Shown in pieces: positions 8,313-25,987 of a DNA stretch of 64,000 nucleotides. The notes below the pieces were generated by a model, which saw nothing but the letters and a program-made list of their open reading frames with translations, searched no databases and was not told the DNA's origin. Position 1 is the stretch's first letter; each line of letters starts with the position of its first letter. The position numbers were made by a program, and so were the translations under genes. This DNA is from Alphaproteobacteria bacterium (GTDB lineage: Bacteria; Pseudomonadota; Alphaproteobacteria; Rhodobacterales; Rhodobacteraceae), in assembly GCA_030429105.1 (NCBI GenBank), contig JAUIDE010000001.1:62001-126000 (forward strand), given 5' to 3'.

Positions 8313-9713
8313 CTATCCCCCGCCGAGCGCCGCGTTGACCTCCTCGACGGCGTCCATCGCGGCGATCATGTCCTCCCGCGTCATGTCGAACTGGCCCATC
8401 GTGACGCGGATGACGTAGCGCCCCTCGTGCATCGTCTGCGTGAGGTAGGTCCGCCCGTCGGCGTTGATCGCCTCCAGCAGCGCCGCCGTTCGCTCATTTC
8501 CCGCCTTGTGCGCGAAGGTGAAGAGCGCAAGGCGGCGCGCGGTGACGATCTCAAGGCCCTCCATGCCCGCGATCCGCGCCTCCGCCTCCGCCGTCCAGTC
8601 CACATGATCGCGGATGCGGCGGCGGAGACCTTCGAGCCCATAGGCGCGGATCAGGAACCAGAGCTTCAGCGCGCGGAAGCGGCGGCCGAGGGGGAGGGTC
8701 CATTCGGAATAGTTCACGATCCCGTCCGCCCCGCCCGTCTCCAGGTACGAGGGGCGGAGGCCCAGGGTGCGGACCTGCTCTGATGGGTCCTTCAGGAACT
8801 GCACCGAACAGTCGAAATTCGCGCCGAGCCATTTGTGCGGGTTGAAGACTATGCTGTCCGCCCGCTCCACGCCCGCCCAAAGCGTGCGGAATTCCGGGCA
8901 GATCATCGCAGAGCCGGCCCAGGCCGCGTCAACATGGGTATAGAGCCCCTCCTCCTCCGCCACGTCGAGGACGGCGGAGACCGGGTCTATCGCGCCGATG
9001 GAGGTGCCGCCGACGCAGAGGACTATGCCGGCGGGCGCGAGGCCCGCCGCGCGGTCCGCCCGGATGGCCTCGCGCAGCAGGTCGGGGCGCATTCCGTAGT
9101 CGGCGTCCGTGCCGATCTTCACGAGATTGTCCTGCCCCACGCCGGCGATCCAGCTGGCCTTGTCCACGCTCGAATGGGTCTGGGCGGAGGCGTAGATGCG
9201 CGGCTTCGCCTCCCCGGCGACGCCGGAGCGGATGCCGCGCCAGCCCATGGAGCGCTCCCTCATCGTCAGCACGGCGCAGGTTGTGGCTGTTGAGGCGCTG
9301 TCCTGGATCAGGCCCTTGTAGCATTCGGGCAGGCCGAGCGCCTGGCGGAGCCAGTCCACCATCCGCGTCTCCATCTCCGTTCCCGCAGGGCTGCCCTGCC
9401 AGATCAGCAGGTTGGCGGAGATGGCGTTGGCGAGTTGCTCGGCGAGGATCGAGGCCGGCGCGGCGTTTGAGGGGAAATAGGCCATGAAGCGCGGATGCTG
9501 CCAGTGGGTCATCCCTTCCGGCACGATCCGCTCGAAATCGGCGAAGATCGCCTCCATCGGCTCCGCCGCTTCGGGCGGGCTTTCGGGGAGCTTCGCCAGC
9601 GTCGCGCCGGGAGCGAGCGGCGGGCGCACCGGCCGGTCGCGGATCGTGCGGTGATAGTCCAGCGTCCAGTCCACGGCGCGGCGGGCCCAAGGCCCGTAAG
9701 AGTCGAAATCCAT
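8313..9713 (-). CDS. Group II pyridoxal-dependent decarboxylase (aromatic-L-amino-acid decarboxylase family)
   Basis: PLP decarboxylase of 466 residues. It shows THWQHPRFMAYFPSNAAPASILAE near 69-92, the PLP aspartate D262 in THVDAAWAGS and the Schiff-base lysine K294 in NPHKWLGANFDCS. It is closest in pattern to aromatic amino acid (tryptophan/DOPA/phenylalanine) decarboxylases, which make the corresponding amines; substrate is inferred only at family level. Divergent from the P450 gene at 9827, sharing a 113-bp control region. Confidence 0.93.
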   Translation of the reverse strand: MDFDSYGPWARRAVDWTLDYHRTIRDRPVRPPLAPGATLAKLPESPPEAAEPMEAIFADFERIVPEGMTHWQHPRFMAYFPSNAAPASILAEQLANAISANLLIWQGSPAGTEMETRMVDWLRQALGLPECYKGLIQDSASTATTCAVLTMRERSMGWRGIRSGVAGEAKPRIYASAQTHSSVDKASWIAGVGQDNLVKIGTDADYGMRPDLLREAIRADRAAGLAPAGIVLCVGGTSIGAIDPVSAVLDVAEEEGLYTHVDAAWAGSAMICPEFRTLWAGVERADSIVFNPHKWLGANFDCSVQFLKDPSEQVRTLGLRPSYLETGGADGIVNYSEWTLPLGRRFRALKLWFLIRAYGLEGLRRRIRDHVDWTAEAEARIAGMEGLEIVTARRLALFTFAHKAGNERTAALLEAINADGRTYLTQTMHEGRYVIRVTMGQFDMTREDMIAAMDAVEEVNAALGGG

Positions 9714-11870: not shown

Positions 11871-12653
11871 TCAGCCCGGTTTTCGGGCGCGGAGGTGGCT
11901 CGGGCGGTGCTCGCCCTTGTCGAGGACAACGATCATCGCCTTCCACGTCAAGATTTGCCGGGCGATCTCCTCCTGTCCGAGGGCCGCTTCGAAGGTGGCG
12001 CGCTCGGGCCCTTCGAGCCGGGCGAGTTCGGCGCGCGCGACCTCGCGATACCAGGGGTTCCGGTCCGTCACCGTCACACCCTCGAACCCGGCCGCCTCCA
12101 GCGCTGCGCGGTAGCGGGCGGGCGAGGCCATGCCGAAATCGAGCGCCTCCGCCTTAAGATAGGCCTCCATCTCCGGCGAGGGCGGGCCGTCATGGCCGAT
12201 CAGCCAGTCGGAGGCGGCGAAGACGCCGCCGGGCTTCAGCACGCGGAAGACGTCCCGCGCCAGCGCCTCCTTGTCGGGGATATGGACGATGGAATCCTTG
12301 GAGAAGACGAGGTCGAACTCGCATTCGGGGAAGGGCAGGGGGCCGGGTTCGACCTGGACGATATCCACCCTGTCGGAGAGCCCCGCCGCCTCCGCCCGCC
12401 GCCGAGCGGCCGCGCAGACCGGGGCCTCGACGTCGATACCAGTCACCTGCGCCGCGCCGTAATCTCTCGCCAGCGCCACCGTGATGCCGCCCGAGCCGCA
12501 GCCGATGTCGAGCGCCGCCATCCCGGCAAGGTCTAGCCCGGCGAGCACGCGCGCCACCTCTTCCGCCCCTCCGGGAGAGAGGTAGCCCTCGCCCCAGAGC
12601 GCCTCGAGAAAGGCGATGTGCCGGTCGTCATAGAGATCGCCGCCTTCGGACAT
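11871..12653 (-). CDS. SAM-dependent methyltransferase, phosphoethanolamine/small-amine methyltransferase-like
   Basis: Class I methyltransferase of 260 residues. Motif I is LDIGCGSGGITVALA (about 48-62), the acidic motif is GIDVEAP, and later come FDLVFSKDSIVHIPDKEALARDVFRVLKPGG and AASDWLIG. The N-terminal GEGYLSPGGAEEVARVL is typical of phosphoethanolamine N-methyltransferase-type enzymes. It lies 13 bp downstream of the BetI-like regulator gene, so the pair probably forms an operon under the palindromic operator at 13388. A link to methylated-amine metabolism is supported by context only. Confidence 0.85.
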   Translation of the reverse strand: MSEGGDLYDDRHIAFLEALWGEGYLSPGGAEEVARVLAGLDLAGMAALDIGCGSGGITVALARDYGAAQVTGIDVEAPVCAAARRRAEAAGLSDRVDIVQVEPGPLPFPECEFDLVFSKDSIVHIPDKEALARDVFRVLKPGGVFAASDWLIGHDGPPSPEMEAYLKAEALDFGMASPARYRAALEAAGFEGVTVTDRNPWYREVARAELARLEGPERATFEAALGQEEIARQILTWKAMIVVLDKGEHRPSHLRARKPG

Positions 12654-12666
12654 AGGGGGCCTTTCT

Positions 12667-13308
12667 TCAGGTTGCGGAGATAAGCCCGCCGGCGCGCCGC
12701 GCAGCCTCGAACCCGTGGCGCGCGACGAGGCTGCCGGCGAGGGCGAGCGAGTCGCCCGGACCGGACCAGACGGGGGTGAGATGTGCGCGGAGCCAGAGCC
12801 CGTCCGACAGGGCGTCGATCGCCGCCGCCATTTCCGACCCCGCCGCCCGGTCGCCCCCTGCGAGCGCGGCGCAGGCGAGCGCGAGCGCCTCGCCGCGCTC
12901 CCGGTCGTATTCCTGGCTGATGTCGGCGTAGAGCGGCCGCGCGGTCGAATCGCCCCAGTAGGCGTGCCAGACGGCGAGCGATTCCCGGTTGAACACCGTC
13001 GGGTCGAAATCCGCGCGCACGATGGCGGCGACCTGCGCCGCAGGGTCCGCCCCCGCGCTCTCGAAGGCGGCGCGCCATGTTTTCCGGTATATCTCGTAAT
13101 GGTGCCGGAAGGCCGCGGCCAGAAGCTTGTCCTTGCTCTCGAAATAGAAGACCGCGACGCCCTGGCTCAGCCCCGCTTCCGCGCTTACGCTGGCGAGCGT
13201 GGTGCGCGCGAGGCCGTGACGGGCGACGGAGCGGAGCGTCGCCTCGATCATCTGGAGGCTGCGTTTTGCGGCGTTCTCCGCGCGCGGCTTTCTCGCCTTG
13301 GTCTGCAT
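12667..13308 (-). CDS. BetI-like TetR-family repressor
   Basis: TetR-fold regulator of 213 residues with helix-turn-helix TTLASVSAEAGLSQGVAVFYFESKDKLLAAAF (about 36-67). The BetI-type C-terminal signature runs FNRESLAVWHAYWGDSTARPLYADIS. BetI proteins repress choline-to-betaine genes and are relieved by choline; this paralogue adjoins genes for a different, betaine-like catabolic route. A palindrome (13388-13409) lies 79 bp upstream of its start, between it and the divergent FAD-oxidoreductase operon, and related copies sit at 19599 and 25966. Self-regulation and control of all three units is therefore predicted. GGGAGGC precedes the ATG at 13308. Confidence 0.9.
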   Translation of the reverse strand: MQTKARKPRAENAAKRSLQMIEATLRSVARHGLARTTLASVSAEAGLSQGVAVFYFESKDKLLAAAFRHHYEIYRKTWRAAFESAGADPAAQVAAIVRADFDPTVFNRESLAVWHAYWGDSTARPLYADISQEYDRERGEALALACAALAGGDRAAGSEMAAAIDALSDGLWLRAHLTPVWSGPGDSLALAGSLVARHGFEAARRAGGLISAT

Positions 13309-13387: not shown

Positions 13388-13409
13388 TTTATTTGAGCGC
13401 TCAGAAAAA
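13388..13409. promoter_or_regulatory. Operator palindrome 1 of the BetI-like regulon
   Basis: Left arm TTTATTTGAGC and right arm GCTCAGAAAAA form an inverted repeat matching at 9 of 11 positions, with the perfect core TGAGCGCTCA. It is A+T-rich in its flanks within very G+C-rich DNA. It sits in the divergent region, 52 bp before the ATG of the FAD oxidoreductase gene and 79 bp from the BetI-like gene. The same arms recur at two other control regions of the block. Confidence 0.8.
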
Positions 13410-13461: not shown

Positions 13462-15105
13462 ATGAGTCAGGCGCGGAGCTACGACGCGATCATCGCCGGC
13501 GGCGGCCATAACGGGCTGACCGCGGGGGCCTATCTGGCGCGCGCCGGTCTTTCCGTCCTCGTTGTTGAGCGGAGCGACATCGTCGGCGGCGCAGCGGTAA
13601 GCCGGGAGCTGGAGCCGGGCTGGACCTATTCCAACTGCTCCTATGTCTGCTCGCTGCTCCGCCCCGAAGTCGCCCGCGACCTCGACCTTGCGCGCCACGG
13701 GCTTCAGGTCATCCCCTATACAGGCGGCGCCAGCTTCACGAAGGGCGGCGAGTATTTCGCCTATCATCACGATCAACGCGCGCTGGAGCGGGAGATCGCG
13801 CGCCTCTCGCCGCGGGACGTCGAGGGCTACGAGCGCTTCGCCCGGGCGGTGACGCGGCAATGCCGCTTCGTGCGCCCGCTACTCCTCCGCTCGGCGCCGG
13901 ACCCGGCCTCCTTCCATCCGCGCGACCTCGGGGAGCTTCTCTTCCTCCTCCGCCGCCTCCACGACCTCGGGGAGCGGGAGATGGGGGAGGCGGTCCGGTT
14001 CTGGACAGCCTCCGTCGGCGATTTCCTCGACGGGTTCATCGAGCACCCGCTCATCAAGGCGCATCTGGCGGGCAGCGGGATCATCGGCACCGGGCTCGGC
14101 GTCTATTCGCCGGGCACGGCCTATGTGCTGCTGCATCATTACATGGGCGATCTTGACGGGGCGATAGGGGCGTGGGGCTTCGCGCGCGGCGGCATGGGCG
14201 CGGTTTCCGCCGCGCTCGCGGGGGCGCTCCGCGCGGCGGGCGGCGAGATTCGGGTGAATGCGGAGGTGGAGCGCATTCTGGTGAAAGACGGGGCCGCGGC
14301 GGGGGTCGTCCTCAAGGGTGGGGAGGAGATCCGCGCCCCGCTCGTCGCCTCGAACATGGATGCGAAACGCACCTTTCTCGGCTGCGTCGAGCCAGGCGCG
14401 CTGCCTGATGACTTCCTCGACGCGGTCCGCCGCTTCCGCATCCGCGGCTCTTCGGCGAAGCTCAACATCGCGCTCGACGGCCCGCCTGTCTTCCCGGCGG
14501 TGAAGGGGGAGGCGCCCTTTCTTTCCGGCGATCTCCACGCCTCGGAGAGCCTCCTCGAGCTCGAAGCCGCCTATGACGACTGGAAGGAGGGCCGCTTCTC
14601 CGCAGCCCCCTATTTCGACATGCTGATCCCGAGCCGGATCGACCCGACGATGGCGCCGCCAGGCGCGCATATGGCCTCGATCTTCGTGCAATACGCGCCT
14701 TACGACCTCGCGCGGGATGGCGTGCGCGACCCGGCGCATTGGGACGAGGCGGCGCGGGAGGGGCTCAAGGCCGCCGTTCTCGACAAGATCGAAGCGGTGA
14801 GCCCCGGCTTTCGCGGCCTGATCCGCCATTCCGAGCTGCGCGCGCCTGTGGACATCGAGCGGGAGGTGGGGCTCAGCGAGGGAAACATCTTCCAGGGGGA
14901 GCTGACGTTCGACCAGCTTCTCTTCAACCGCCCGGTTCCAGGCTGGGCGCGGCACCGCTCGCCGCTCCCCGGCCTGTGGCTCGTCGGCTCCTCGGCCCAT
15001 CCGGGCGGGGGCGTGATGGCGGCGGCGGGCGCGAACGCGGCGCGGGAAATCCTGCGCGACATGAAGCGCGGCGGGCGGGACGAAGCCGCGTTCCGCGCGG
15101 CGTGA
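13462..15105 (+). CDS. Phytoene-dehydrogenase-fold FAD oxidoreductase (PYROXD2-like), first copy
   Basis: FAD-dependent amine-oxidase/phytoene-desaturase superfamily protein of 547 residues. The dinucleotide-binding motif is AIIAGGGHNGLTAGAYLARAGL (8-29) followed by VVERSDIVGGAAVSREL. The C-terminal FAD motif is LWLVGSSAHPGGGVMAAAGANAAREIL. Close relatives are annotated as phytoene dehydrogenase-like or PYROXD2-like with unknown substrates. It is the first gene of a four-gene operon (with 15113, 16537 and 17734) behind operator 1. Oxidation of a C-N or C-C bond of the transported compound is inferred. ATG 13462 is chosen because the longer frame only reads antisense through the regulator. Confidence 0.92.
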   Translation: MSQARSYDAIIAGGGHNGLTAGAYLARAGLSVLVVERSDIVGGAAVSRELEPGWTYSNCSYVCSLLRPEVARDLDLARHGLQVIPYTGGASFTKGGEYFAYHHDQRALEREIARLSPRDVEGYERFARAVTRQCRFVRPLLLRSAPDPASFHPRDLGELLFLLRRLHDLGEREMGEAVRFWTASVGDFLDGFIEHPLIKAHLAGSGIIGTGLGVYSPGTAYVLLHHYMGDLDGAIGAWGFARGGMGAVSAALAGALRAAGGEIRVNAEVERILVKDGAAAGVVLKGGEEIRAPLVASNMDAKRTFLGCVEPGALPDDFLDAVRRFRIRGSSAKLNIALDGPPVFPAVKGEAPFLSGDLHASESLLELEAAYDDWKEGRFSAAPYFDMLIPSRIDPTMAPPGAHMASIFVQYAPYDLARDGVRDPAHWDEAAREGLKAAVLDKIEAVSPGFRGLIRHSELRAPVDIEREVGLSEGNIFQGELTFDQLLFNRPVPGWARHRSPLPGLWLVGSSAHPGGGVMAAAGANAAREILRDMKRGGRDEAAFRAA

Positions 15106-15112
15106 GGCGGGG

Positions 15113-16540
15113 ATGGCGGAGCGGTTGAAGGCGGCGGTGATCGGGGCGGGCGTCAACGGCCTCGTCGCGGCGGCGGCGCTCGCGCGCGGGGGATGCGAAG
15201 TTACCGTGATCGAGCGCGGGGCCGCGCCCGGCGGCATGATGGCGCTCGGCCTTTTCGCCCGCGGGCCGCATCCCGCAGCGCTCGAAGCGCTCGGGCTGAA
15301 GCCCGGCGCTCTCGGCCCCGCGATCCCGACCGTCGCGCTCTGCCCATCGGGGCGGCATGTGCTGGTGGAGGGCGCCGAGGCGCGGTTCGCTGACGGCTCT
15401 GCGCATCCGGGCGCGGAACGCTGGCGGGTGCTTTCCCGCCGGCTCGACCGGTTCGCCGCCGCGCTCGCCCCTCTGCTGACCGGCGCGCCGCCGCCGATGC
15501 GGCTCCGGGCCGAGGGCTTGCCCGGCCTCCTCCGCTTTGCGCTTCGCCTCCGCCTGCTCGGCGCGCGGGACATGCGGGAATTGCTGCGCATCGGCCTTTC
15601 CAACGCCGCCGATCTGGCGGCGGACGCGCTGCCGGAAGGGCCGCTGGCGGGCCTCCTCGCCTTCGACTCCGTGCTCGGCTCCCGCGCCGGGCCGATGGCG
15701 CCGGGAACGGTCGTGCCGCTACTTCTCCGCCGCGCGCCGCTCCGGCGGATGGAGGGGCTCGCCGCGCGGCTCGCGGCGGCGTCGGAAGGCAAGGGCGCGC
15801 GCCTCCGCCTCGGCGCCGGCGCCGCGCGCATCCTCTTCGAAGACGACCGGGCGCACGGCGTTCTGCTTGACGATGGCGAGCGCGTGGAGGCCGATCTCGT
15901 CCTCTCCAGCCTCGGCGCCGCGCAGACGCTGGCGCTCGCCGGGCCGGCGCTCTTCGATATCGAGGCGCAGCGCCGGATAGGCGCGATCCGCGCCCAAGGC
16001 GCCGCCGCGCGCGTCGATCTCGACTTCGCCGCGCCGCCGCGCCTCCCGGGGCTCGACCCGGCGCATCACGGCGCGCGGCTTGTCCTCGCGCCCTCGGTTC
16101 AGGCGGTGGAGCCGGCCTATGATCCGGTGAAATACGGCCGCCTCCCGGCCCTTCCGGTCATGGAGGGGCGGATCGACGGCGCGCGGCTTTCGCTCACTGT
16201 GCAATGCGTTCCCCATGACGCGCCGCGCGACCGGATCGTCGCCGCGACGCTCGCCGCGCTGGAGACGGTCGCGCCTGGCCTCGGCGGGGAGGTTCGCCAT
16301 GCCGGGGCGCTTTCCCCCGCCGATATCGAGGCGATGACGGGCGCGCCCGGCGGCCACTGGCATCACGGGGAGATCGCGCTCGACCAGTTCCTGACGCTCC
16401 GGCCCGCAAACGGCATGGCGCGCCATGCGATGGGTCCGCCGGGTCTCTTTCTCTGCGGCGCCGGCGCGCATCCGGGCGGGGATGTGACGGGCCTTCCCGG
16501 CCTCAACGGCGCCCGCGCCGCGCTGGAGGCGATGCGATGA
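15113..16540 (+). CDS. Phytoene-dehydrogenase-fold FAD oxidoreductase, second copy
   Basis: Second member of the same fold, 475 residues, clearly diverged from its neighbour. FAD binding is seen at AAVIGAGVNGLVAAAALARGG (6-26) with VIERGAAPGGMM, and at the C terminus LFLCGAGAHPGGDVTGLPGLNGARAALEAM. It starts 7 bp after the upstream oxidoreductase, preceded by GAGGCGGGG, and its stop overlaps the next gene (ATGA). Side-by-side copies suggest a heteromeric enzyme or two sequential oxidations; the sequence does not decide between them. Confidence 0.9.
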   Translation: MAERLKAAVIGAGVNGLVAAAALARGGCEVTVIERGAAPGGMMALGLFARGPHPAALEALGLKPGALGPAIPTVALCPSGRHVLVEGAEARFADGSAHPGAERWRVLSRRLDRFAAALAPLLTGAPPPMRLRAEGLPGLLRFALRLRLLGARDMRELLRIGLSNAADLAADALPEGPLAGLLAFDSVLGSRAGPMAPGTVVPLLLRRAPLRRMEGLAARLAAASEGKGARLRLGAGAARILFEDDRAHGVLLDDGERVEADLVLSSLGAAQTLALAGPALFDIEAQRRIGAIRAQGAAARVDLDFAAPPRLPGLDPAHHGARLVLAPSVQAVEPAYDPVKYGRLPALPVMEGRIDGARLSLTVQCVPHDAPRDRIVAATLAALETVAPGLGGEVRHAGALSPADIEAMTGAPGGHWHHGEIALDQFLTLRPANGMARHAMGPPGLFLCGAGAHPGGDVTGLPGLNGARAALEAMR

Positions 16541-17718
16541 GCCGCGCCCCCTCCCTCTCCGGCCCGCTCCCGGGCCCGTTCCATCCCCGGCTCGAAGCCG
16601 CCTCCACGGCGAAGGACTGGGCGGACTGGGCCGGCGTCCTCTCCCCCCGGAAGCTTGACGCGACGGGCCGCGAGTATTTCGCGATCCGCAACCAGGCGGC
16701 TCTGATCGACATCTCCCCGATGCGGAAATACCGGATCGAGGGGCCGGAGGCGGAGCGCGTGCTCAATCGCGTCGTCACCCGCGACGTCGCGAAGATCGCC
16801 CCCGGCCGCGTCGGCTATGCGCTCTGGTGCGATGAAGACGGGATGGCGATCGACGACGGCACGATCTTCCGCCTCGGACCGGAGCGCTTCCGTCTCTGTT
16901 GTCAGGAACGGATGCTGACTTGGCTGATAGACGCGGCGGAGGGATTAGATGCAGCGGTGAGCGACGAGACGGAGGCCCTCGCCGCGCTTGCGCTCCAGGG
17001 GCCGACCAGTTTCTCCGTGCTGGAGGCGGCTGGGCTGCAAGTTTCCTCGCTCCGGCCTTTCGATCTTGCGGAGCCGGAGCCTGGTCTCCTCGTCTCCCGC
17101 ACCGGGTTCACCGGCGATCTCGGCTACGAGCTCTGGATCGCCACGGAGCACGCGCTCGCGCTCTGGGACCGGCTGATTGAGGCGGGGCGGGTTTTCGGCA
17201 TCCTCCCAGCCGGGATGGAGGCGCTCGACATGGCGCGGATCGAGGCGGGCTTCCCGATGACGGGGTTCGACTTCCAGTCCATCCACGCCGCGGAGCGCCC
17301 GAGCCGGGGGCGCACGCCGTTCGAACTCGGGCTCGGCAGGCATGTCGATTTCGCGAAGGGGCATTTCAATGGCCGCCGTGCGCTCCTCGCATTGAAGGAA
17401 GAGCCGCCCAAACGGCGTCTTGTGACGCTGGATATCGATGGCTCCAGAGCGGCTTCCGGCGCGCTCCTCTACCGGCGCGGCATGTTTGGCCGCTGGCGCG
17501 AGGTCGGCCATGTCACGTCCGCGCTCTGGTCGCCGACGGCGAAGCGCAACGTCGCCTTCGCTGAGATCGAGGGCGAGGCCGAGGGCGCAGACCTCTTCGC
17601 CGAGATCTACCTTTTCAAGGAAGGCAAGTGGGAGCGGCGCATGGCCCGCGCCCGCCCGGGCCCCCGCGCCGCCTTCCGCCCCGACCGCGCGCGGGCGACC
17701 CCGCCCGCCCGACGCTGA
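16537..17718 (+). CDS. GcvT/DmdA-type aminomethyltransferase-like protein
   Basis: Glycine-cleavage T-protein family, 393 residues, with the folate-binding N domain (EYFAIRNQAALIDISPMRKYRIEGPEAERVLNRVVTRDV is the usual opening) and the family signature RTGFTGDLGYELWI near residues 188-201, followed by GMEALDMARIEAGFPM. Relatives include dimethylglycine/sarcosine oxidase C-terminal domains and the DMSP demethylase DmdA, which pass a methyl group to tetrahydrofolate. Here it is a free-standing protein between amine-type FAD oxidoreductases and an aminotransferase, so folate-linked demethylation is the best inference. The C-terminal 40 residues are Arg/Pro-rich and probably disordered. Confidence 0.9.
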   Translation: MSRAPSLSGPLPGPFHPRLEAASTAKDWADWAGVLSPRKLDATGREYFAIRNQAALIDISPMRKYRIEGPEAERVLNRVVTRDVAKIAPGRVGYALWCDEDGMAIDDGTIFRLGPERFRLCCQERMLTWLIDAAEGLDAAVSDETEALAALALQGPTSFSVLEAAGLQVSSLRPFDLAEPEPGLLVSRTGFTGDLGYELWIATEHALALWDRLIEAGRVFGILPAGMEALDMARIEAGFPMTGFDFQSIHAAERPSRGRTPFELGLGRHVDFAKGHFNGRRALLALKEEPPKRRLVTLDIDGSRAASGALLYRRGMFGRWREVGHVTSALWSPTAKRNVAFAEIEGEAEGADLFAEIYLFKEGKWERRMARARPGPRAAFRPDRARATPPARR

Positions 17719-17733
17719 CCACAGGAGAGACCG

Positions 17734-19119
17734 ATGAACAGCCAGGCCTCGCGAGCCCCCACGACCCGCGCCATCCGCCGGTGGGATAACGAGCATTTTC
17801 TCCATCCGTGGGAGAGCATGGGGACGGAGGATGCGGACCGCATGGTTGCTGCGGAGGGCGAGGGGATCGAATTGATCGACGCCGAGGGTCGCCGCTATAT
17901 CGACGGGCCGGGCGGCATGTGGTGCGTGCAGATCGGCTATGGCCGCAAGGAGATGGCGGAGGCGATTGGCGCTCAGGCGATGCGTCTCGCTTATCACTCG
18001 CCCTGGTCCTTCGCCTCCCGCCCTTCGGCGGAACTGGCGAGAAAGCTGGCGATGCTGGCGCCGGGGGACCTAAACACTGTCTTCTTCGCCACCGGCGGCT
18101 CCTCCGCCGTGGACAGCGCGCTTCGCTTCGCGCAGTTTTACAACAACCTCCGTGGAAAGCCTGAAAAGAAACGCTTTCTCTCCCGAGAGAAGAGCTATCA
18201 CGGCTCCACTTACCTCTCCGCCAGCGTCTCGGGCAAGGAGCGGGACGGGTCGGTGCTCGACATCGAGAAACGGCTGGTCCGGGTTCTACCGAACATCAAC
18301 CCCTCGATCCGGGCCGAGGGGATGAGCGAGGCGGAGTGGTGCGACGCCAAGATCGGGGAGCTGGAGGCGGCCATCGCGGAAGAGGGGGCGGAGACCATCG
18401 CCGCCTATATCTCGGAGCCCGTCATGGCCTCCGGCGGCGTCGTAGTTCCTCCGGTCGGCTATCACCGGCGGAGCCGGGAGATCTGCCGCGCGCACGATAT
18501 CCTCTACATCGCGGACGAGGTGGTGACGGCCTTCGGTCGGCTCGGCCACTGGTTCGCCTCGGAAGATGTGTTCGGCATCGTTCCCGATATCATCACCTGC
18601 GCGAAAGGCCTCACCTCCGGCTATCTCCCGCTCGGCGCGACGATCATCTCGGACCGGCTGATGAACGAAATCTACGCCGAGGGGCGCGAGGATGTCGCCT
18701 TCAAGAACGGCTACACCTATTCCGGCCACCCGGTCTGCTGCGCCGCCGCGCTTAAGAGCATCGAGATCATCGAGCGGGAGCGGCTTCTGGAGCATGTGCG
18801 GGAGGTTTCCCCCCATTTCCTCGCGCGGCTCAATGACCTCAGGCGCCACGATATCGTGGGCGACACGCGCGGGCTCGGCCTCGTCGGTTGCGTCGAGGGG
18901 CGACCCGCGCCAGGGATGAAGGAGAAGGAAAGGCTCGCCGTCGACTTCGAGTTCGGCGCGCGGGTCGATGCAAAATGCGAGGCTATGGGGCTGATCGTGC
19001 GCCCGCTGATCAACATGTGCGTCTTTTCCCCGCCGCTTATCATCAAACGGGACGAGATCGACCGGATGTTCGACATTCTCGACAAGGCCATCGGACAGGT
19101 CGAGGCGGAGATGTTCTAA
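17734..19119 (+). CDS. Class III aminotransferase (omega-amino acid/putrescine-pyruvate type)
   Basis: PLP aminotransferase of 461 residues. GMWCVQIGYGRKEMAEAI near 61-78 is typical of SpuC- and beta-alanine:pyruvate-type enzymes. FATGGSSAVDSALRFAQ binds the cofactor phosphate, YHGSTYLSASVSG follows, D261 lies in YIADEVVTAFGRLG and K291 in TCAKGLTSGYLPLG. AGGAGAG precedes ATG 17734. It closes the operon from operator 1 and is convergent with the formaldehyde-activating-type gene, 4 bp apart. It likely removes the terminal amine after demethylation; the acceptor and substrate are not determined. Confidence 0.93.
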   Translation: MNSQASRAPTTRAIRRWDNEHFLHPWESMGTEDADRMVAAEGEGIELIDAEGRRYIDGPGGMWCVQIGYGRKEMAEAIGAQAMRLAYHSPWSFASRPSAELARKLAMLAPGDLNTVFFATGGSSAVDSALRFAQFYNNLRGKPEKKRFLSREKSYHGSTYLSASVSGKERDGSVLDIEKRLVRVLPNINPSIRAEGMSEAEWCDAKIGELEAAIAEEGAETIAAYISEPVMASGGVVVPPVGYHRRSREICRAHDILYIADEVVTAFGRLGHWFASEDVFGIVPDIITCAKGLTSGYLPLGATIISDRLMNEIYAEGREDVAFKNGYTYSGHPVCCAAALKSIEIIERERLLEHVREVSPHFLARLNDLRRHDIVGDTRGLGLVGCVEGRPAPGMKEKERLAVDFEFGARVDAKCEAMGLIVRPLINMCVFSPPLIIKRDEIDRMFDILDKAIGQVEAEMF

Positions 19120-19123
19120 GGTT

Positions 19124-19519
19124 TCAGTCGACGCCCCTCGGGCTCCGAGGCAGGCCATCCGGCGTTTCGAACCAGGCGATCCGGCTTTCCTCCCAGATAT
19201 GCCGACGAGGTTTCAGCCCCTCCGGCTCGTCGAAGCATCCGACATTCGGGGAGACGTGCTCTCCGTCACGGAAGGAGACCTGCGAACCGCAGACCGCGCA
19301 GAAATCCCGCCGCCCATTCGCCGACGAGACGTAGACGGCGGGCTTACCCTTCGTCCAGCGGAACGCCTCGGGCGGGTAGAGCGCCCAGACCTGCGCCGGA
19401 GCGCCGGAGGAGCGCTGGCACATGCGACAATGGCACCAGCCTATGTCCTGAGGCTCCCCCGTCGCTTCGAACCGGAGCGCGCCGCAGAGGCAGCCTCCGG
19501 TCCTGATCGTTTCCGTCAT
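19124..19519 (-). CDS. GFA family (glutathione-dependent formaldehyde-activating enzyme-like, Gfa/DUF636)
   Basis: Zinc-binding beta-tent protein of 131 residues with the family cysteines in GGCLCGALRF, DIGWCHCRMCQRSSGAP and FCAVCGSQVSF. The founding member Gfa was proposed to speed S-hydroxymethylglutathione formation. Many family members have unknown roles. Here it is divergent from the binding-protein gene across operator 2 and lies among two Rieske oxygenases, whose N-demethylation would release formaldehyde, so a formaldehyde-handling role fits. ATG 19519 follows GGAGGGACTC; the longer frame has no good start. Confidence 0.88.
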   Translation of the reverse strand: MTETIRTGGCLCGALRFEATGEPQDIGWCHCRMCQRSSGAPAQVWALYPPEAFRWTKGKPAVYVSSANGRRDFCAVCGSQVSFRDGEHVSPNVGCFDEPEGLKPRRHIWEESRIAWFETPDGLPRSPRGVD

Positions 19520-19598
19520 GAGTCCCTCCGCGTTTCGACAATTCCAGCTTGGCGTCGGCGCGGACCCGTGCAAGCTGAGAGCGTGGCAAAGCGTTAAA

Positions 19599-19620
19599 AT
19601 TATATAAGCGCTCAAATAAA
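19599..19620. promoter_or_regulatory. Operator palindrome 2 of the BetI-like regulon
   Basis: Left arm ATTATATAAGC and right arm GCTCAAATAAA match as an inverted repeat at 8 of 11 positions; the right arm equals the consensus exactly. It lies between the divergent GFA gene (79 bp from its ATG) and the PotD-like gene (74 bp from its ATG). Both could be controlled from it. Confidence 0.75.
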
Positions 19621-19694: not shown

Positions 19695-20753
19695 ATGACC
19701 ATAGCAAGGATTACCGCGATCTCCGCCGCTGCGCTGATCGCCGCGCAGGGCGCCTTCGCGGCCGACCCGGACCTCGTCATCTTCGACTGGGCGGGATATG
19801 AGGACCCGGAATTCTACCAGTCCTATCTCGCCTCGCATCAAGAGATCCCGACATATTCCTTCTTCAGCGACGAGGAGGAGGCGTTCCAGAAGCTTCGCTC
19901 TGGCTTCCGCGCGGACCTCGCGCATCCCTGCTCTCAATCCGTAGTGAAATGGCGCGAGGCGGGGCTCCTTAGGCCGATCGACACGAGCCGTATCCCGGAA
20001 TGGGAGAACGTGATGGCCGAGTTCAAGGCCATGGAGGGCTTCGTGGAGGACGGCAAAGCCTGGATCGTGCCGCTCGACTGGGGTGCGACCGGGCTTGTCT
20101 ATCGCACCGACGAGGTGCCGGCGGAGGATGCAGCCACGCTGCAATCCTTCATTTCCCCGAAATACGAGGGCCGGGTCTCGCTCCCCGATAATGTGGACGA
20201 CGCCTACGCCCTCGGCTTCCTCGCCGTCGGGGTGAAGGACTGGACGAAGGCGACCGACGCCGAGTTCGCGGCGGCTTCGGACTTCCTCCGCAAGGCGCAC
20301 GCCAACACTCGCGCCTACTGGCTGGACAATTCGCAGCTCTCCCAGCTCATGGCCTCGGACGAGGTGCTGCTGGCCTGGGCGTGGAACGAGACGCCGACGA
20401 CGATGCAGGCGGAGGGGCATCCTGTCGCAATGAACCGGGCTACGAAGGAAGGCTCCTCCACCTGGGTTTGCGGCTATGTGAAGCTCGAAGGCGGCGAGGG
20501 TTCGGAGGACAAGGCCTATGACTTCATCAACGCATGGCTGGAGCCGCGGACGGCGGATTACATCGTGAACGCTTGGGGTTACGGCCATTCGAACGCGAAG
20601 GCGATGGGCGCGCTCGACCCCGAGGCGCTGAAGGCGGCGGGGTTCGACGATTTCGAGTCCTTCTCCGAAAGCACGCTCTGGCAGTCTCCGCTCCCGTTCG
20701 AGTTGCGCGAGAAGATGATCGCCGAGTTCGAGCGCATCAAGGCCGGGTTCTGA
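19695..20753 (+). CDS. PotD-like ABC transporter substrate-binding protein
   Basis: Periplasmic extracellular solute-binding protein of the spermidine/putrescine-type cluster, 352 residues. The signal peptide is MTIARITAISAAALIAAQGAFA. The mature protein opens DLVIFDWAGYEDPEFYQSYL and contains KLRSGFRADLAHPC, IVPLDWGATGLVYRTDEV and LLAWAWNETPTTMQAEGHPVAM. Matching permeases and ATPase are encoded on the opposite strand at 21921-24738, so the transporter is split over two transcripts, each with a regulon operator. A polyamine-type fold does not fix the ligand, since related systems also bind betaine-like compounds. AGGGAG precedes ATG 19695. Confidence 0.9.
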   Translation: MTIARITAISAAALIAAQGAFAADPDLVIFDWAGYEDPEFYQSYLASHQEIPTYSFFSDEEEAFQKLRSGFRADLAHPCSQSVVKWREAGLLRPIDTSRIPEWENVMAEFKAMEGFVEDGKAWIVPLDWGATGLVYRTDEVPAEDAATLQSFISPKYEGRVSLPDNVDDAYALGFLAVGVKDWTKATDAEFAAASDFLRKAHANTRAYWLDNSQLSQLMASDEVLLAWAWNETPTTMQAEGHPVAMNRATKEGSSTWVCGYVKLEGGEGSEDKAYDFINAWLEPRTADYIVNAWGYGHSNAKAMGALDPEALKAAGFDDFESFSESTLWQSPLPFELREKMIAEFERIKAGF

Positions 20754-20761
20754 GGCGGGCC

Positions 20762-21910
20762 TTGGAGAGGGCGGCGGAGCGGGCGGAGGGCTTCAACGGC
20801 CTGAAACGGGCCATCGCCTCGTTGACCGCAGCTTGGTATGGCGACCCGGCGCAGCATCAGCGGGAGATGGGGGCGATCTGGCGGAAAGGCTGGGTCGCCT
20901 TCACGCGGGCGGAGGCGCTGGCGGCGCCTGGCGCCCGGTTCTCCGGCGCAATCGCGGGGATGAACGTGCTCGCGCTCCGCGACGGGGCGGGCGCGCTCCG
21001 GGCCTTCCACAATGTCTGCCGCCACCGGGGGGCGGAACTTTGCCCGGAGGGCGCCGGGCGGGTTGAGAGCGGGCGCATCTCCTGCCCCTATCACGACTGG
21101 ACCTATGCGGAGGACGGCCGGCTGCTTGCGACGGGCAAGGCGCGGGCGGTGGAGGGCTTCGACCGGGCGGGGCACGGACTCGTTCCGCTCGGCGTCGCGG
21201 AATGGGGCGGGTTCGTCTTCGTCAACGCCGCCGGCGGGGGGCAGGGCGACTTCGAGGCTGAGCACGCATCGGCCGTCGCCCCCCTAGCGCCCTGGAGGCC
21301 AGGGGCGCTTGCGCCTGTCCATGCGGAGACCATCGACATCGAGGGCGACTGGAAGCTCTTCTGGGAGAATTTCAACGAATGCCTGCACTGCCCCGGCGTC
21401 CACCCCGCGCTCTCCGCGCTCGTGCCGATCTACGGGCGCGGGATCATGGAGCGGGAGGACGACCCGGCGTGGCGCGGGCATGGGCCCGACGCGCCGTCGG
21501 CGTTGACCGGGCGGCTCCGCGAGGGGGCGGAAAGCTGGACGGAGGACGGGCGCGCCGCCGGCCCGCGCCTCCCCGGGCTTTCGGACGAGGATGCCGCGCG
21601 CGGGCAGACCTACGCGGTGATCCTGCCGTCCTTCTTCATGGTCGGACATCTCGACCATGCCCGCGCCGTTCGTGTCCTGCCGCTCGAGCCGGGGCGGACG
21701 CGGCTGGAGGCCACATGGCTCGCGCCTCCCGATGCGGGGATCGACGGCGCGGCGCTCGCCGCCTTTGCAAGGCGCGTCATGGCGGAGGATGCGGCGGCCT
21801 GCGAGGGGAACCAACGCGGCCTCCGCGCCGCGCCTTTCGAGGCGGGCGTGTTGATGCAGGAGGAATACGAGATCGCGGCGTTCCACGAATGGGTTCGTGC
21901 GCGGCTCTAG
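20762..21910 (+). CDS. Rieske oxygenase alpha subunit, first copy (TTG start)
   Basis: Rieske non-heme iron oxygenase of 382 residues. The [2Fe-2S] ligands are C86-x-H88 in NVCRHRG and C108-x2-H111 in SCPYHDWTY. The mononuclear iron site has H209 and H214 in ENFNECLHCPGVH, with E206 in the position that bridges to the Rieske cluster. Glu instead of the usual Asp is also known in carnitine monooxygenase CntA. The start is taken as TTG 20762, 8 bp after the binding-protein stop and preceded by GAGGCGG; a TTG at 20822 is an alternative. No reductase or ferredoxin gene is adjacent. N-demethylation or N-dealkylation of a quaternary amine is inferred. Confidence 0.88.
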   Translation: MERAAERAEGFNGLKRAIASLTAAWYGDPAQHQREMGAIWRKGWVAFTRAEALAAPGARFSGAIAGMNVLALRDGAGALRAFHNVCRHRGAELCPEGAGRVESGRISCPYHDWTYAEDGRLLATGKARAVEGFDRAGHGLVPLGVAEWGGFVFVNAAGGGQGDFEAEHASAVAPLAPWRPGALAPVHAETIDIEGDWKLFWENFNECLHCPGVHPALSALVPIYGRGIMEREDDPAWRGHGPDAPSALTGRLREGAESWTEDGRAAGPRLPGLSDEDAARGQTYAVILPSFFMVGHLDHARAVRVLPLEPGRTRLEATWLAPPDAGIDGAALAAFARRVMAEDAAACEGNQRGLRAAPFEAGVLMQEEYEIAAFHEWVRARL

Positions 21911-21920
21911 AGCTTACAGG

Positions 21921-22999
<1,079 letters not shown>

Positions 23000-23003
<4 letters not shown>

Positions 23004-23809
23004 ATCCAGCCCTCGTCGCCAGCGCCCCGCCGCGCGCGGCGGCGGAACCATTCCGCCGCGATGAGGAGGAGTAGAGAGAAGAGGAGGAGGAGGAAGCCGA
23101 GCGCCATCACACTCGGCAGCTTCGCGGTGAAGCGGAGCTGGCTCCAGATATAGACAGGCAGGGTCGCGTCCGACCCGGTGAGGAAAAAGGCGATGATGAA
23201 CTCGTCCAGCGAGAGGGTGAAGGAGATGAGAAGGCTCGCCACGATCCCCGGCGCAACGAGCGGGAGCGTGACGCGGAAAAATGTGCCGACGCGGGTCTCC
23301 CCGAGGTCGAGCGACGCCTCTTCAAGGCTCTGGTCGAGCGCGAGGAAGGCGGAGGAGAGGATGGCGACGGCGAAGGGCGTGCAGATGAGGACGTGGCCGA
23401 GCGCGACTGTCCACAGCGAGAGCGGCATGCCGAGCTGCACCAGCACGATGAGGAGCGCGACCGCGATTATGATTTCCGGCAGAACCAGCGGCGCCATGAT
23501 GAGGCCCATGATCGGCCGCTTGCCGGGAAAGCGGCTCCGGGTCGCCGCCCGCGCCGCGCAGATGCCGAGCGCGGTGCTGATGAGCGCCGCCGCGACGCCG
23601 ACCTTCAGGCTGTTCCAGACCGCGGCGTGAAGCGCCGGCGTCTCCCAGAGCTGTGTGAAGGCGGCTGTGGTGAAGCCAGAGAGCGGGAAAGCGATGATCG
23701 CGCTGTCGTTGAAGGCGAAGAGCGGCAGGAGGATGACCGGGGCGTAGAGGAAGAGGAGATAGAGGAGGGCGTAGCCCCGAAGCCCCATGCTGCGCCCTGC
23801 CGCGCTCAT
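23000..23809 (-). CDS. PotC-like ABC transporter permease
   Basis: Inner-membrane permease of 269 residues with about six membrane segments beginning ALLYLLFLYAPVILLPLFAF. The permease EAA-type loop EEASLDLGETRVGTFFRVTLPLVAPGI contacts the ATPase. ATG 23809 overlaps the PotB-like stop (ATGA); a much longer frame running upstream to 24496 only reads through that gene. It pairs with the permease at 23806-24738 to form the channel. Confidence 0.92.
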
Positions 23810-24738
23810 CGCGAAGCCCCGCCGATGCGCCGCCCGACAAGGAGCAACATCAGGGAAATCGCAGCGACGATCGCCATAGAGGAAACGGAGAGCGCTGCGC
23901 CGAGCGGCGCGTCGTTCGCCTTGCCGAACTGCACCTGAATGATGTTGGCGATCATCAACCCGTCCGACCCGCCGACGAGCCGCGGCGTCACATAATCCCC
24001 GACGGTGGGGATGAATACGATCAGAGCCGCCGCAAGCACGCCCGGCATTGCGAGCGGCAGCGTGACGCGGAAGAAACGGCGGAGCGGCCCGTCGCCGAGG
24101 TCTTCCGCCGCCTCGAGCAGGCTCCGGTCGATCCGGGAGAGGGCGACGTATATCGGAAGGATCGCGAAGGGCGCCCAAGCATGCGTCAGCGTCAGGATCA
24201 CCGCATTGACGTCGTAGAGGATGAAGGTCAGCGGCTCTTCTATCAGCCCGAGCCAAATCAGCGCGCTGTTGAGGACGCCATTGTAGCCCAGGATCACCTT
24301 CCAGAGGAAAACGCGAAGTAGATAGCTCGTCCAGAACGGGATCGTGATGAGGAAGAGCCAAAGCGCGCGGTTCCGCTTCACATGGAAGGCGACGAAATAG
24401 GCGATGGGGAAGGCCAGGATCACCGTCAGCACCGTAACGATTCCGGAAATCGCCAGTGAGCGGAGCATGAGGAGGCGATAGAGCGGGTCCGTCCACGCCT
24501 CCCGATAGTTTGCGAGGGTGAAGGTCCTGTCGATCTCCAGATAGTTCTGCGTCCAGAAGCTGAGGAGGAGGACGAGCGCGAGCGGGGCGGCGAGGAGGAC
24601 GAGCGCGTAGAGGAAGGTCGGGCTGACGAGCAGGAGCCCTTGAGCCGCCTCGCCGCGGAGAGCGTTAGCGATCCGGCGTGAACGCCGCCGAGGGCTGATA
24701 TAGGCCACCGGCGCCGCGCGCTCCTCCGCGGCGCTCAC
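23806..24738 (-). CDS. PotB-like ABC transporter permease
   Basis: Inner-membrane permease of 310 residues with an N-terminal Arg-rich cytoplasmic stretch, a first membrane helix FLYALVLLAAPLALVLLLSF and further segments such as ISGIVTVLTVILAFPIAYFVAF. The EAA loop is LEAAEDLGDGPLRRFFRVTLPLAMPGV. It overlaps both neighbours by 4 bp (Rieske oxygenase upstream, PotC-like downstream). It forms the transporter with the PotD-like binding protein encoded on the other strand. Confidence 0.92.
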   Translation of the reverse strand: MSAAEERAAPVAYISPRRRSRRIANALRGEAAQGLLLVSPTFLYALVLLAAPLALVLLLSFWTQNYLEIDRTFTLANYREAWTDPLYRLLMLRSLAISGIVTVLTVILAFPIAYFVAFHVKRNRALWLFLITIPFWTSYLLRVFLWKVILGYNGVLNSALIWLGLIEEPLTFILYDVNAVILTLTHAWAPFAILPIYVALSRIDRSLLEAAEDLGDGPLRRFFRVTLPLAMPGVLAAALIVFIPTVGDYVTPRLVGGSDGLMIANIIQVQFGKANDAPLGAALSVSSMAIVAAISLMLLLVGRRIGGASR

Positions 24739-25952
24739 TCGACTCCGATCCTCTCGGTCGCCAGCCTCTCGTTCACGGCCGCCATATCCTCCGCCCTCGG
24801 CTCTTCATCAAGTGTGACGACGGGAAGAAGCGCGCGCAACTGGTCATGGTGGCTCTTCACCCCGTATTCGAGGTCGGAGAGGATCACGCCGTCATAGGCG
24901 CTCGATCTCGTCGCCTCGGCGGCCCAGATCGTGAGCTGCTTGTCCTCCTCGGCGGTGATCGCATCGATCCGGCCGGAGAGATACCGCGCGGCGCGCCATT
25001 CGCGGCTTTCGTCCGGCAGCCGGTAGGTCGCCCCGCGGACGCGGGATTCGCCTGCAGATACAGGGAATTCCTGATAGAAGTTCACACTGTCCGGATAGAA
25101 GCTCACTACGGCGTTCGGGAAAATCCCGATGTATAGCCAAGCGCGGCGATGGCTTTCCGGCAGCCAGTCCGCCTCCGGCAGGATCTTCTTGTAGCGCTGC
25201 ACGCTCCAGAGCCGCCCGGCGCCGGGGTTGAAGGTGGCGAAGGAGCGGGAGGTGCCGTCCACGAAGGGCTCGTCATAGTAATAGCGGCCGTAGAGCTCGT
25301 GTAGGCCCGGATGGGCCATGGCGACATGGTAGCCCTCGTTGTCCACATCCCGCACCGCTTTCCAGTTGACCGGCGCCGGGTCCGACCAGAAGGGTCCGTC
25401 GGTCGCGCCAAGGGTTTCCGGCTGGTAGGGCGCGATCTCCTCCGCGTGCCGCGCCATGAGGTCGGCGACGGAGGGCTGCGGCCCGGGCGCGAAACGGACG
25501 AAGACGAAGCCATGCCAGATCTCCATTTCCAGCGGCTTCAGGCCCCATTCCACCGGATCCAGTTCGGGCAGGCTCCGCGGCTGCGCGACGCCTCGCAGCC
25601 GCCCCGTCAGGTCATAGGTCCAGCCGTGAAAGGGGCAGACGATGGCGCCGCTCACATTTCCGCGCTCCCCCGCCACGACGCGGGAGCCCCGATGGCGGCA
25701 AAGGTTGTGGAAGGCGCGAACCGCCCCGTCCCGCCCGCGGATCACGAGCCCGCGCTCCCCGGCGACGTCGAGCGTCATGAAGTCGCCGGGCTCCGGCATG
25801 TCGGCGACATGACAAACGATCTGCCAGTGGCGGCGGAAGAGGCGGTCCGTCTCCAGTTCGAGAAGGGCGTCGCTCGAATAAGTCCAGCCGGGAAGGCCGG
25901 ACCGGTTCCAGCCGCGCGGCGTTTCGGTCGGGTTGGGTCTGGCTTCGCTCAT
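24735..25952 (-). CDS. Rieske oxygenase alpha subunit, second copy
   Basis: Rieske non-heme iron oxygenase of 405 residues. Cluster ligands are C85-x-H87 (NLCRHRG) and C106-x2-H109 (VCPFHGWTYDLTG). The catalytic iron site is E206, H209 and H214 in DVDNEGYHVAMAH, again with Glu in the bridging position. It differs from the first copy through most of its length, so the two are not a recent duplication. It is the first gene of the operon with the PotB/C/A-like genes, directly behind operator 3. Coupling of an oxygenase with its own importer in one transcript points to the imported compound as substrate. Confidence 0.92.
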   Translation of the reverse strand: MSEARPNPTETPRGWNRSGLPGWTYSSDALLELETDRLFRRHWQIVCHVADMPEPGDFMTLDVAGERGLVIRGRDGAVRAFHNLCRHRGSRVVAGERGNVSGAIVCPFHGWTYDLTGRLRGVAQPRSLPELDPVEWGLKPLEMEIWHGFVFVRFAPGPQPSVADLMARHAEEIAPYQPETLGATDGPFWSDPAPVNWKAVRDVDNEGYHVAMAHPGLHELYGRYYYDEPFVDGTSRSFATFNPGAGRLWSVQRYKKILPEADWLPESHRRAWLYIGIFPNAVVSFYPDSVNFYQEFPVSAGESRVRGATYRLPDESREWRAARYLSGRIDAITAEEDKQLTIWAAEATRSSAYDGVILSDLEYGVKSHHDQLRALLPVVTLDEEPRAEDMAAVNERLATERIGVE

Positions 25953-25965
25953 CTGGGCGTCTCAA

Positions 25966-25987
25966 TTTATCTGAACGCTCAAATAAA
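25966..25987. promoter_or_regulatory. Operator palindrome 3 of the BetI-like regulon
   Basis: Left arm TTTATCTGAAC and right arm GCTCAAATAAA pair at 9 of 11 positions, and the right arm is identical to that of operator 2. It ends 14 bp before the ATG of the second Rieske gene, so a bound repressor would cover the leader or core promoter. Confidence 0.78.

Follow-up and report, generated by a model that had tools for sequence, protein, structure and literature searches.

Two adjacent phytoene-dehydrogenase-fold flavoproteins conserved with a GcvT-like protein: a possible part in the catabolism of quaternary or N-methylated amines

The stretch of DNA analyzed here, which we call the window, covers 64,000 nucleotides of an alphaproteobacterial genome of the Rhodobacteraceae (assembly GCA_030429105.1, contig JAUIDE010000001.1, positions 62,001 to 126,000). 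It encodes two neighboring flavin adenine dinucleotide (FAD) oxidoreductases of the phytoene-dehydrogenase fold, A (13462..15105, + strand, 547 amino acids) and B (15113..16540, + strand, 475 amino acids), both assigned from profiles and a fold model. An earlier note on this DNA described the two genes as starting 7 base pairs (bp) apart; the spacing of 7 bp is right, but it runs from the stop of A to the start of B, on the same strand, and not between the two starts. The start of C (16537..17718, +), a GcvT-like folate-binding protein (PF01571, 193.7 bits; invariant Asp106-Asp107), overlaps the end of B by 4 bp and is followed by D (17734..19119, +), a class III aminotransferase (NF005447, 646.7 bits with a cut-off of 618). 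A scan upstream of A for a sigma-70 promoter and a terminator found none. As a unit, the A-B-GcvT triplet is conserved across several marine bacterial groups and some rhizobia and, judging from its gene context, we suggest with a probability of roughly one half that A and B supply the flavoproteins of a system that breaks down a quaternary or N-methylated (poly)amine.

The conservation of this unit was followed in several samples. The window's family was sampled with 394 genomes, of which 40 hold A at an identity of at least 57% (the window's own genome and the fragment G419 counted), and the genome-neighborhood survey that the earlier note had proposed for the pair gives a uniform picture in them: B adjoins A in 40 of 40 and C adjoins B in 40 of 40, with a gap between the A and B matches of 10–519 bp, which is 52 bp or less in 36 of the 40. 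Only relatives of A at 38–40% are held by 10 of the 394. In a sample of 398 genomes of the phylum, which overlaps the family sample (G000, G268), A reaches 55% or more in 11 genomes including the own one, and each of the 10 others has the tandem copy; 43 of the 398 hold only 34–41% relatives, for which the control used an E-value of 1e-60 that could hide a diverged tandem copy. We also collected 80 loci from named genomes with B as the seed, many of them from Pelagibacteraceae and the rest largely from marine gammaproteobacteria, SAR11 and SAR92 among them. A lies directly upstream of B in 78 of these and the whole triplet is found in 77; the exceptions are two contigs that begin less than 140 bp before B (L030, L063) and one that ends before the position of GcvT (L011). 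Within the best 30 of 103 plasmid records the top seven (57.9–65.9%) match in two places each and the next 23 (30.6–38.4%) in one place. Among 61 genomes, G045 (locus L103) and G039 (locus L098), both from other families, likewise carry two such genes in tandem together with a GcvT-like gene, with A at 41% and 32%, respectively (31–40% in the comparison of the loci), and therefore the arrangement may predate the 55% group. These two far loci are possibly related systems with other substrates. One further locus (L010) comes from a record titled as a Klebsiella pneumoniae metagenome-assembled genome; that label is probably wrong, given an A at 58% identity and a cluster like those of environmental gammaproteobacteria.

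A and B both match FAD/NAD-binding Pfam models and had been described as adjacent, diverged members of the phytoene-dehydrogenase fold, which agrees with a profile–profile comparison (hhalign probability 100, E 3e-118, 28% identity) and with their structural models. The flavin amine oxidase model PF01593 (gathering cut-off 19.8) is passed by A with 61.9 bits and, marginally, by B with 21.1 bits, and the DAO-type model PF01266 (cut-off 27.9) is matched by A with 45.3 bits over residues 8–140 only and barely by B, with 28.6 bits over residues 7–41. The AlphaFold models of A and B have a predicted local distance difference test score of 83.7 and 85.5, respectively, and the best match of both is gamma-carotene desaturase 4rep, with Z 33.2 and a root-mean-square deviation (rmsd) of 2.9 over 474 residues for A and Z 28.3 and rmsd 3.6 over 427 residues for B. 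Other oxidoreductases of the superfamily follow, including putrescine oxidase and monoamine oxidases. In a tree of 68 rows and 542 columns A forms a single clade (support 100/100), and a branch with support 97/83 splits A, singletons and the carotenoid rows from the rest; B requires two changes in this tree, because very long amine-oxidase rows fall among the B rows.

Although the carotenoid enzymes CrtI, CrtD and CrtO resemble A and B in fold and in the FAD-binding region, both proteins score far below the cut-offs of these families. On the CrtI-family model (crtI_fam, TIGR02734; cut-off 238.1), CrtO (cut-off 1000) and CrtD (NF045637; cut-off 580), A reaches 113.7, 231.9 and 74.4 bits and B reaches 52.4, 80 and 47.3 bits. 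The own genome has a CrtI on contig C7 (627 bits on TIGR02734, cut-off 238) and a CrtD on contig C179 (700 bits on NF045637), both outside the contig of the window, so that the CrtI and CrtD steps are not missing from this genome. This is in line with the earlier placement of A and B outside carotenoid synthesis, for which strong similarity of either protein to carotenoid desaturases, together with a carotenoid cluster elsewhere that lacks their step, had been named as the result that would speak against it. The earlier statement that no carotenoid genes are nearby also holds: there are none among the 23 profiled window proteins (3.9–35.7 kb, A and B aside), nor among the annotated neighbors of A-B-C in four plasmids, from Parasedimentitalea, Rhizobium, Shinella and Fuscovulum.

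Monoamine oxidases carry a Lys over the flavin N5. A conserved Lys of A and B (K333 in A) aligns with a Lys of the PF01593 amine oxidases of the own genome, and in HMMER alignments there is no Lys at this position in CrtI 4dgk or in 4rep. The site in A holds Lys in 35 of 37 rows, with one Arg (G045) and one misframed row (G027); in B it holds Lys in 33 and Arg in five of 38, and the B of the window is one of those with Arg. A second motif of B, GGHWHHGE, is found in four of nine B proteins that were collected by other means than seed patterns, with a variant in three and neither in two. GHWHHGEI was among the seed patterns, and the rows collected with these may carry the motif by construction.

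One question that is raised by these sequences is whether both proteins are catalytic. A and B are both under purifying selection, yet B varies more than A: the mean column identity is 58% for B versus 76% for A and, against a contig of the same genus (L009), the ratio of non-synonymous to synonymous substitution rates is 0.066 for A, 0.176 for B, 0.156 for C and 0.031 for D. In the genus of the window (the window and L009) B has 475 amino acids, as against 498–577 in 36 other B proteins, and in alignment A2 the window B is without four segments (12, 8, 11, and 6 residues) that are present in at least 80% of 27 others. These losses, the Arg in place of Lys and the greater variation of B would fit a complex in which only A is catalytic and B is a diverged, structural or regulatory subunit, an arrangement that is compatible with amine catabolism by the pair but that we regard as rather unlikely, given that the 36 B proteins outside the genus have 498–577 amino acids and that, of 38 B proteins, 33 keep the Lys and 36 fit the GxGxxG pattern applied.

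In C, the partner of A and B, D106 and D107 are present in all 17 orthologues aligned, and the Asp of this motif we take to be catalytic. Among solved structures the closest to C is residues 418–784 of trimethylamine N-oxide demethylase (Tdm; 161.7 bits), followed by GcvT proteins and dimethylglycine oxidase, and on model NF053776 it reaches 256.6 bits with a cut-off of 1100. In enzymes of the Tdm and dimethylglycine dehydrogenase (DMGDH) type, the one-carbon unit from an N-methyl amine is handed to a GcvT-like folate domain, which dimethylglycine oxidase and sarcosine oxidase combine with a DAO-type flavin domain or subunit. C shares such a domain with Tdm and with the dimethylglycine, sarcosine and N-methylglutamate dehydrogenases, and it best matches the C-terminal part of Tdm. 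Here the folate protein stands alone, and its partner would be a phytoene-dehydrogenase-fold pair whose best fold matches are of the CrtI type.

The pairing with GcvT and an aminotransferase had already suggested an amine context, and the neighboring genes extend it with an importer, a BetI-like repressor, a Rieske oxygenase of group V type and an operator-like palindrome. The repressor E (12667..13308, −) belongs to the TetR family (TetR_C_6, 55.6 bits) and is BetI-like, although it stays below the BetI cut-offs (TIGR03384, 112.6 versus 201.3; PRK00767, 111.4 versus 118). Behind it lies F (11871..12653, −), a class I S-adenosylmethionine-dependent methyltransferase (Methyltransf_25, 86 bits). 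Downstream of D there is a glutathione-dependent formaldehyde-activating (GFA) family protein (19124..19519, −; PF04828, 89.6 bits for the open reading frame (ORF) 19124-19615), whose start codon was taken from reading the sequence. It is followed by I (19695..20753, +), a PotD-like periplasmic binding protein (SBP_bac_6, with matches to spermidine/putrescine-binding proteins), and by the Rieske oxygenase J (20762..21910, +; TTG start estimated). On the opposite strand the genes N-M-L-K encode a second, GbcA-like Rieske oxygenase (N, 24735..25952, −), a PotB-like permease (M, 23806..24738, −), a PotC-like permease (L, 23000..23809, −; start estimated, ORF opening at 24496) and a PotA-like ATP-binding cassette ATPase (K, 21921..23003, −; start estimated, ORF opening at 23051), the last named from the annotation of relatives. 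K, L, and M are all conserved neighbors.

The same set recurs elsewhere. In the four plasmids named above and in other relatives, A-B-C is found with TetR/BetI-like, class III aminotransferase, Rieske and PotABCD-type genes in shuffled order, and an Ensifer plasmid, whose record is without annotation, has the same set by ORF comparison. Neighbors were counted in the 46 of the 80 B-seeded loci that are at least 21.4 kb long, with BLASTP bit cut-offs of 50–100 of our own choosing and in a set where SAR11 weighs heavily. These 46 loci have GcvT in 46, Rieske in 43, class III aminotransferase in 40, BetI-like in 37, PotABC in 34, DAO-type oxidase in 33, PotD-like in 32, gamma-glutamylputrescine-synthetase-like in 14, aldehyde dehydrogenase in six, old-yellow-enzyme (OYE)-type in two and methyltransferase in one. 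D relatives (58–79%) stand beside A-B-C in the window and in 19 of 39 other A-bearing genomes, adjoining C in 18 of the 19 and preceding A in the remaining one (G155). The family also has a second layout, with A at 57–62%, in which a Rieske gene follows C and an ECxHC motif lies 3.3–3.8 kb from A in 15 genomes. The own genome has, on contig C96, a second amine-type locus (L111) with two PF01593 amine oxidases in which a look at the sequence also finds a DAO-type oxidase, an OYE-type protein, PotBC-like permeases and a BetI-like TetR protein.

J carries the bridging Glu with a CxxC, ENFNECLHCPGVH, which is the signature of group V (quaternary ammonium) Rieske oxygenases; in the available part of one paper this group is described by a bridging Glu with an adjacent CxxC, and in CntA electrons pass through the Glu (E205), whereas activity depends on the Cys pair C206/C209 (PMC10952381). 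J resembles CntA in these residues, but differs from the carnitine (CntA), stachydrine (Stc2) and glycine betaine (GbcA) oxygenases in that no reductase gene is seen beside it, and on the GbcA model NF058607 it reaches 156 bits with a cut-off of 670. N reads DNEGYHVAMAH, with the bridging Glu and no Cys pair. When 79 Rieske ORFs were scanned with one expression, 67 had Glu at the bridging place, one had Asp and 11 were unmatched, N of the window among them. N is linked to A but not exclusive to it, since at an identity of at least 50% it is held by 31 of 40 A-bearing genomes and by 23 of 354 others (Fisher p 1.6e-23). In 23 of the 40 genomes an ECxHC-encoding stretch is found no more than 15 kb from A, and 27 of 87 sites fall in this range against 0.7 expected; a reversed-pattern control gave 19 sites versus 87.

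A 22-bp palindrome, TTTATTTGAGCGCTCAAATAAA, occurs three times in the window: between E and A in their divergent promoter region (13388..13409, two mismatches), 5′ of I, and so before J as well (19599..19620, three mismatches), and 5′ of the N-M-L-K operon (25966..25987, two mismatches). The next best match in 64 kb has eight mismatches, and the best match in 60 dinucleotide shuffles has six. Because the palindrome lies before A, before I and before N-M-L-K, one regulon is suggested, and A-B-C-D, I-J and N-M-L-K are probably controlled together through these operator-like sites. The consensus was built after viewing the sites in the window and in three other loci (L099, L100, L106); the shuffles therefore overstate the signal, and genomes fetched after the core motif are the fair test. 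Among these the palindrome stands before A with at most two mismatches in 10 of the 11 genomes that allow the test, with G145 outside the count due to a contig end. Before N it is present with at most four mismatches in seven of nine N-holding stretches, the window included, and with five in G145. The signal is carried by the 22-mer and its positions and not by shorter cores. In other branches different palindromes lie before A (ATTGAATAATCATTCAAT at 8320 of L013, TATTGATTGAATATTCATTCAATA at 8330 of L017, and TGAATGAGTATTCATTCA at 8299 of L078) and are perhaps operators of their own.

From what was computed here, namely which genes are present, how they are linked, which residues are conserved and where the palindrome recurs, we infer a scheme with its reactions, its substrate, the binding of the repressor and a contact between A and B. 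The cation would be taken up by the PotABCD-type importer (I, K, L, and M) and sensed by the repressor E, which would then free the three putative operators. A Rieske oxygenase (J and/or N) would strip the quaternary nitrogen of its first methyl, giving formaldehyde, which the nearby GFA protein may handle. A and B would oxidize the remaining N-CH3 to an iminium, each alone or together in a complex, C would capture the one-carbon unit on tetrahydrofolate, and D would convert the freed primary amine to an aldehyde.

More tentatively, and with the odds somewhat against it, the pair may represent a new class of N-demethylase, in which a two-subunit flavoenzyme of the PYROXD2 fold works with a free-standing GcvT-type folate protein, completes the degradation of quaternary polyamines in roseobacters, SAR11 and SAR92, and offers a first biochemical model for human PYROXD2 acting on methylated lysines or methylamines. 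PYROXD2, for which we know of no GcvT partner, presumably belongs to the same superfamily as A, and if this kinship holds its metabolite associations point the same way. In the available parts of the respective papers, variants of human PYROXD2 are associated with levels of N6-methyllysine and dimethyllysine (PMC9730628) and of trimethylamine and dimethylamine (PMC3169529), and that of PMC8777681 names no substrate. The A-B-C gene set is apparently without an assigned role, as far as titles and abstract openings of open-licence papers go, which gave no description of an A-B-GcvT set; the available main text of a SAR11 polyamine paper (PMC8437039) has no ‘phytoene’, ‘gcvT’ or ‘betI’, and ‘phytoene’ is likewise absent from that of a SAR11 one-carbon paper (PMC3160333), where four HTCC1062 aminomethyltransferases are discussed. 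The cobalamin route for glycine betaine, as far as the available text describes it (PMC12478193), is a different system. If the proposal is true, very abundant ocean bacteria have an as yet unassigned route for a class of methylated amines in dissolved organic nitrogen, and its inducer could be found by way of the regulator and operator. The large PYROXD2/phytoene-dehydrogenase-like superfamily would then gain a testable activity outside carotenoids, oxidative N-demethylation, and a human orphan enzyme that has strong metabolite associations would be tied to a chemistry open to study in bacteria.

Several observations weigh against amine catabolism by A and B as we propose it. The methyltransferase F fits nowhere in a purely catabolic scheme; its relatives (58–66%) are found in four of the 12 loci L099–L110 (L100, L101, L109, and L110) and, at 61%, in one of the 46 long B-seeded loci (L078). 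No Rieske reductase gene was seen in the cluster, and the arguments from the Lys and from PYROXD2 rest on analogy. Due to its four deletions and the Arg at the Lys site, the B of the window may be non-catalytic. The linkage has its gaps as well: 11 more A-bearing genomes have D relatives (48–51%) elsewhere and nine have none at the cut-off, N is missing at 50% from nine of the 40 and present in the 23 genomes without A, and 17 of the 40 have no ECxHC in the 15 kb around A. The palindrome before A has six mismatches in G089 and is absent (eight or more mismatches) in all eight loci tested from more distant branches; it is missing before N in G100 (10 mismatches) and, before the binding protein, it was found in two of three tested genomes and is missing in G034. 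Nor do shorter cores exceed chance, as a 14-bp core with up to three mismatches has three sites in the window versus 1.76 expected and a 12-bp core with one mismatch has seven matches in the own genome versus nine for the reversed control.

Another explanation is that A and B oxidize the C–N backbone of an ordinary polyamine, as putrescine and spermidine oxidases do, and that the GcvT-like protein serves another step. The PotD-like importer, the gamma-glutamylputrescine-synthetase relatives and DAO-type oxidases counted in 14 and 33 of the 46 long loci, and the alignment of the A model with putrescine oxidase 2yg7 (Z 21.6, rmsd 4.1, 419 residues) would all suit it. It leaves unexplained the constant GcvT partner, the group V Rieske signature and the GFA protein, and we consider it improbable. 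Still less probable is that the cluster is, or overlaps, the homarine (N-methylpicolinate) operon of 2026, which is reportedly named homABCDER and is said to have a marine range including SAR11. Five enzymes and a regulator would fit such an operon; according to the available part of a citing paper Mgd takes part in homarine catabolism (PMC13390433), but no mgd genes were seen in the cluster, the matches to the soxA family that pass the cut-off are on contigs C9 and C6, and a polyamine-type importer with gamma-glutamylpolyamine genes fits homarine poorly. The available parts of four papers, the homarine passages of PMC12817926, PMC9038784 and PMC9723723 and also PMC10675870, have nothing on the A-B-C genes. 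That A and B are carotenoid desaturases or ketolases, for which the shared fold and the CrtO score of A could be cited, has next to no probability given the profile scores, the Lys at A 333, the own CrtI and CrtD and an amine context with no carotenoid genes among the profiled or annotated neighbors.

Some further genes lie near the cluster or its relatives. Just outside the cluster in the window there is a pyridoxal-phosphate-dependent decarboxylase (8313-9713, −), which reaches 155 bits on an RhbB-like diaminobutyrate decarboxylase model with a cut-off of 900, and adjoining it a cytochrome P450 (9773-11191, +). In Rhizobium sp. SL42 (L107, 6242-10754) A lies about 3 kb from genes for a MocE ferredoxin, a desaturase-family protein and an inositol dehydrogenase, which we take to look like rhizopine catabolism. 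At the end of the Fuscovulum cluster (L110, 24647-25498) there is a protein of the dimethylsulfoniopropionate-lyase family (PF16867, 65.8 bits).

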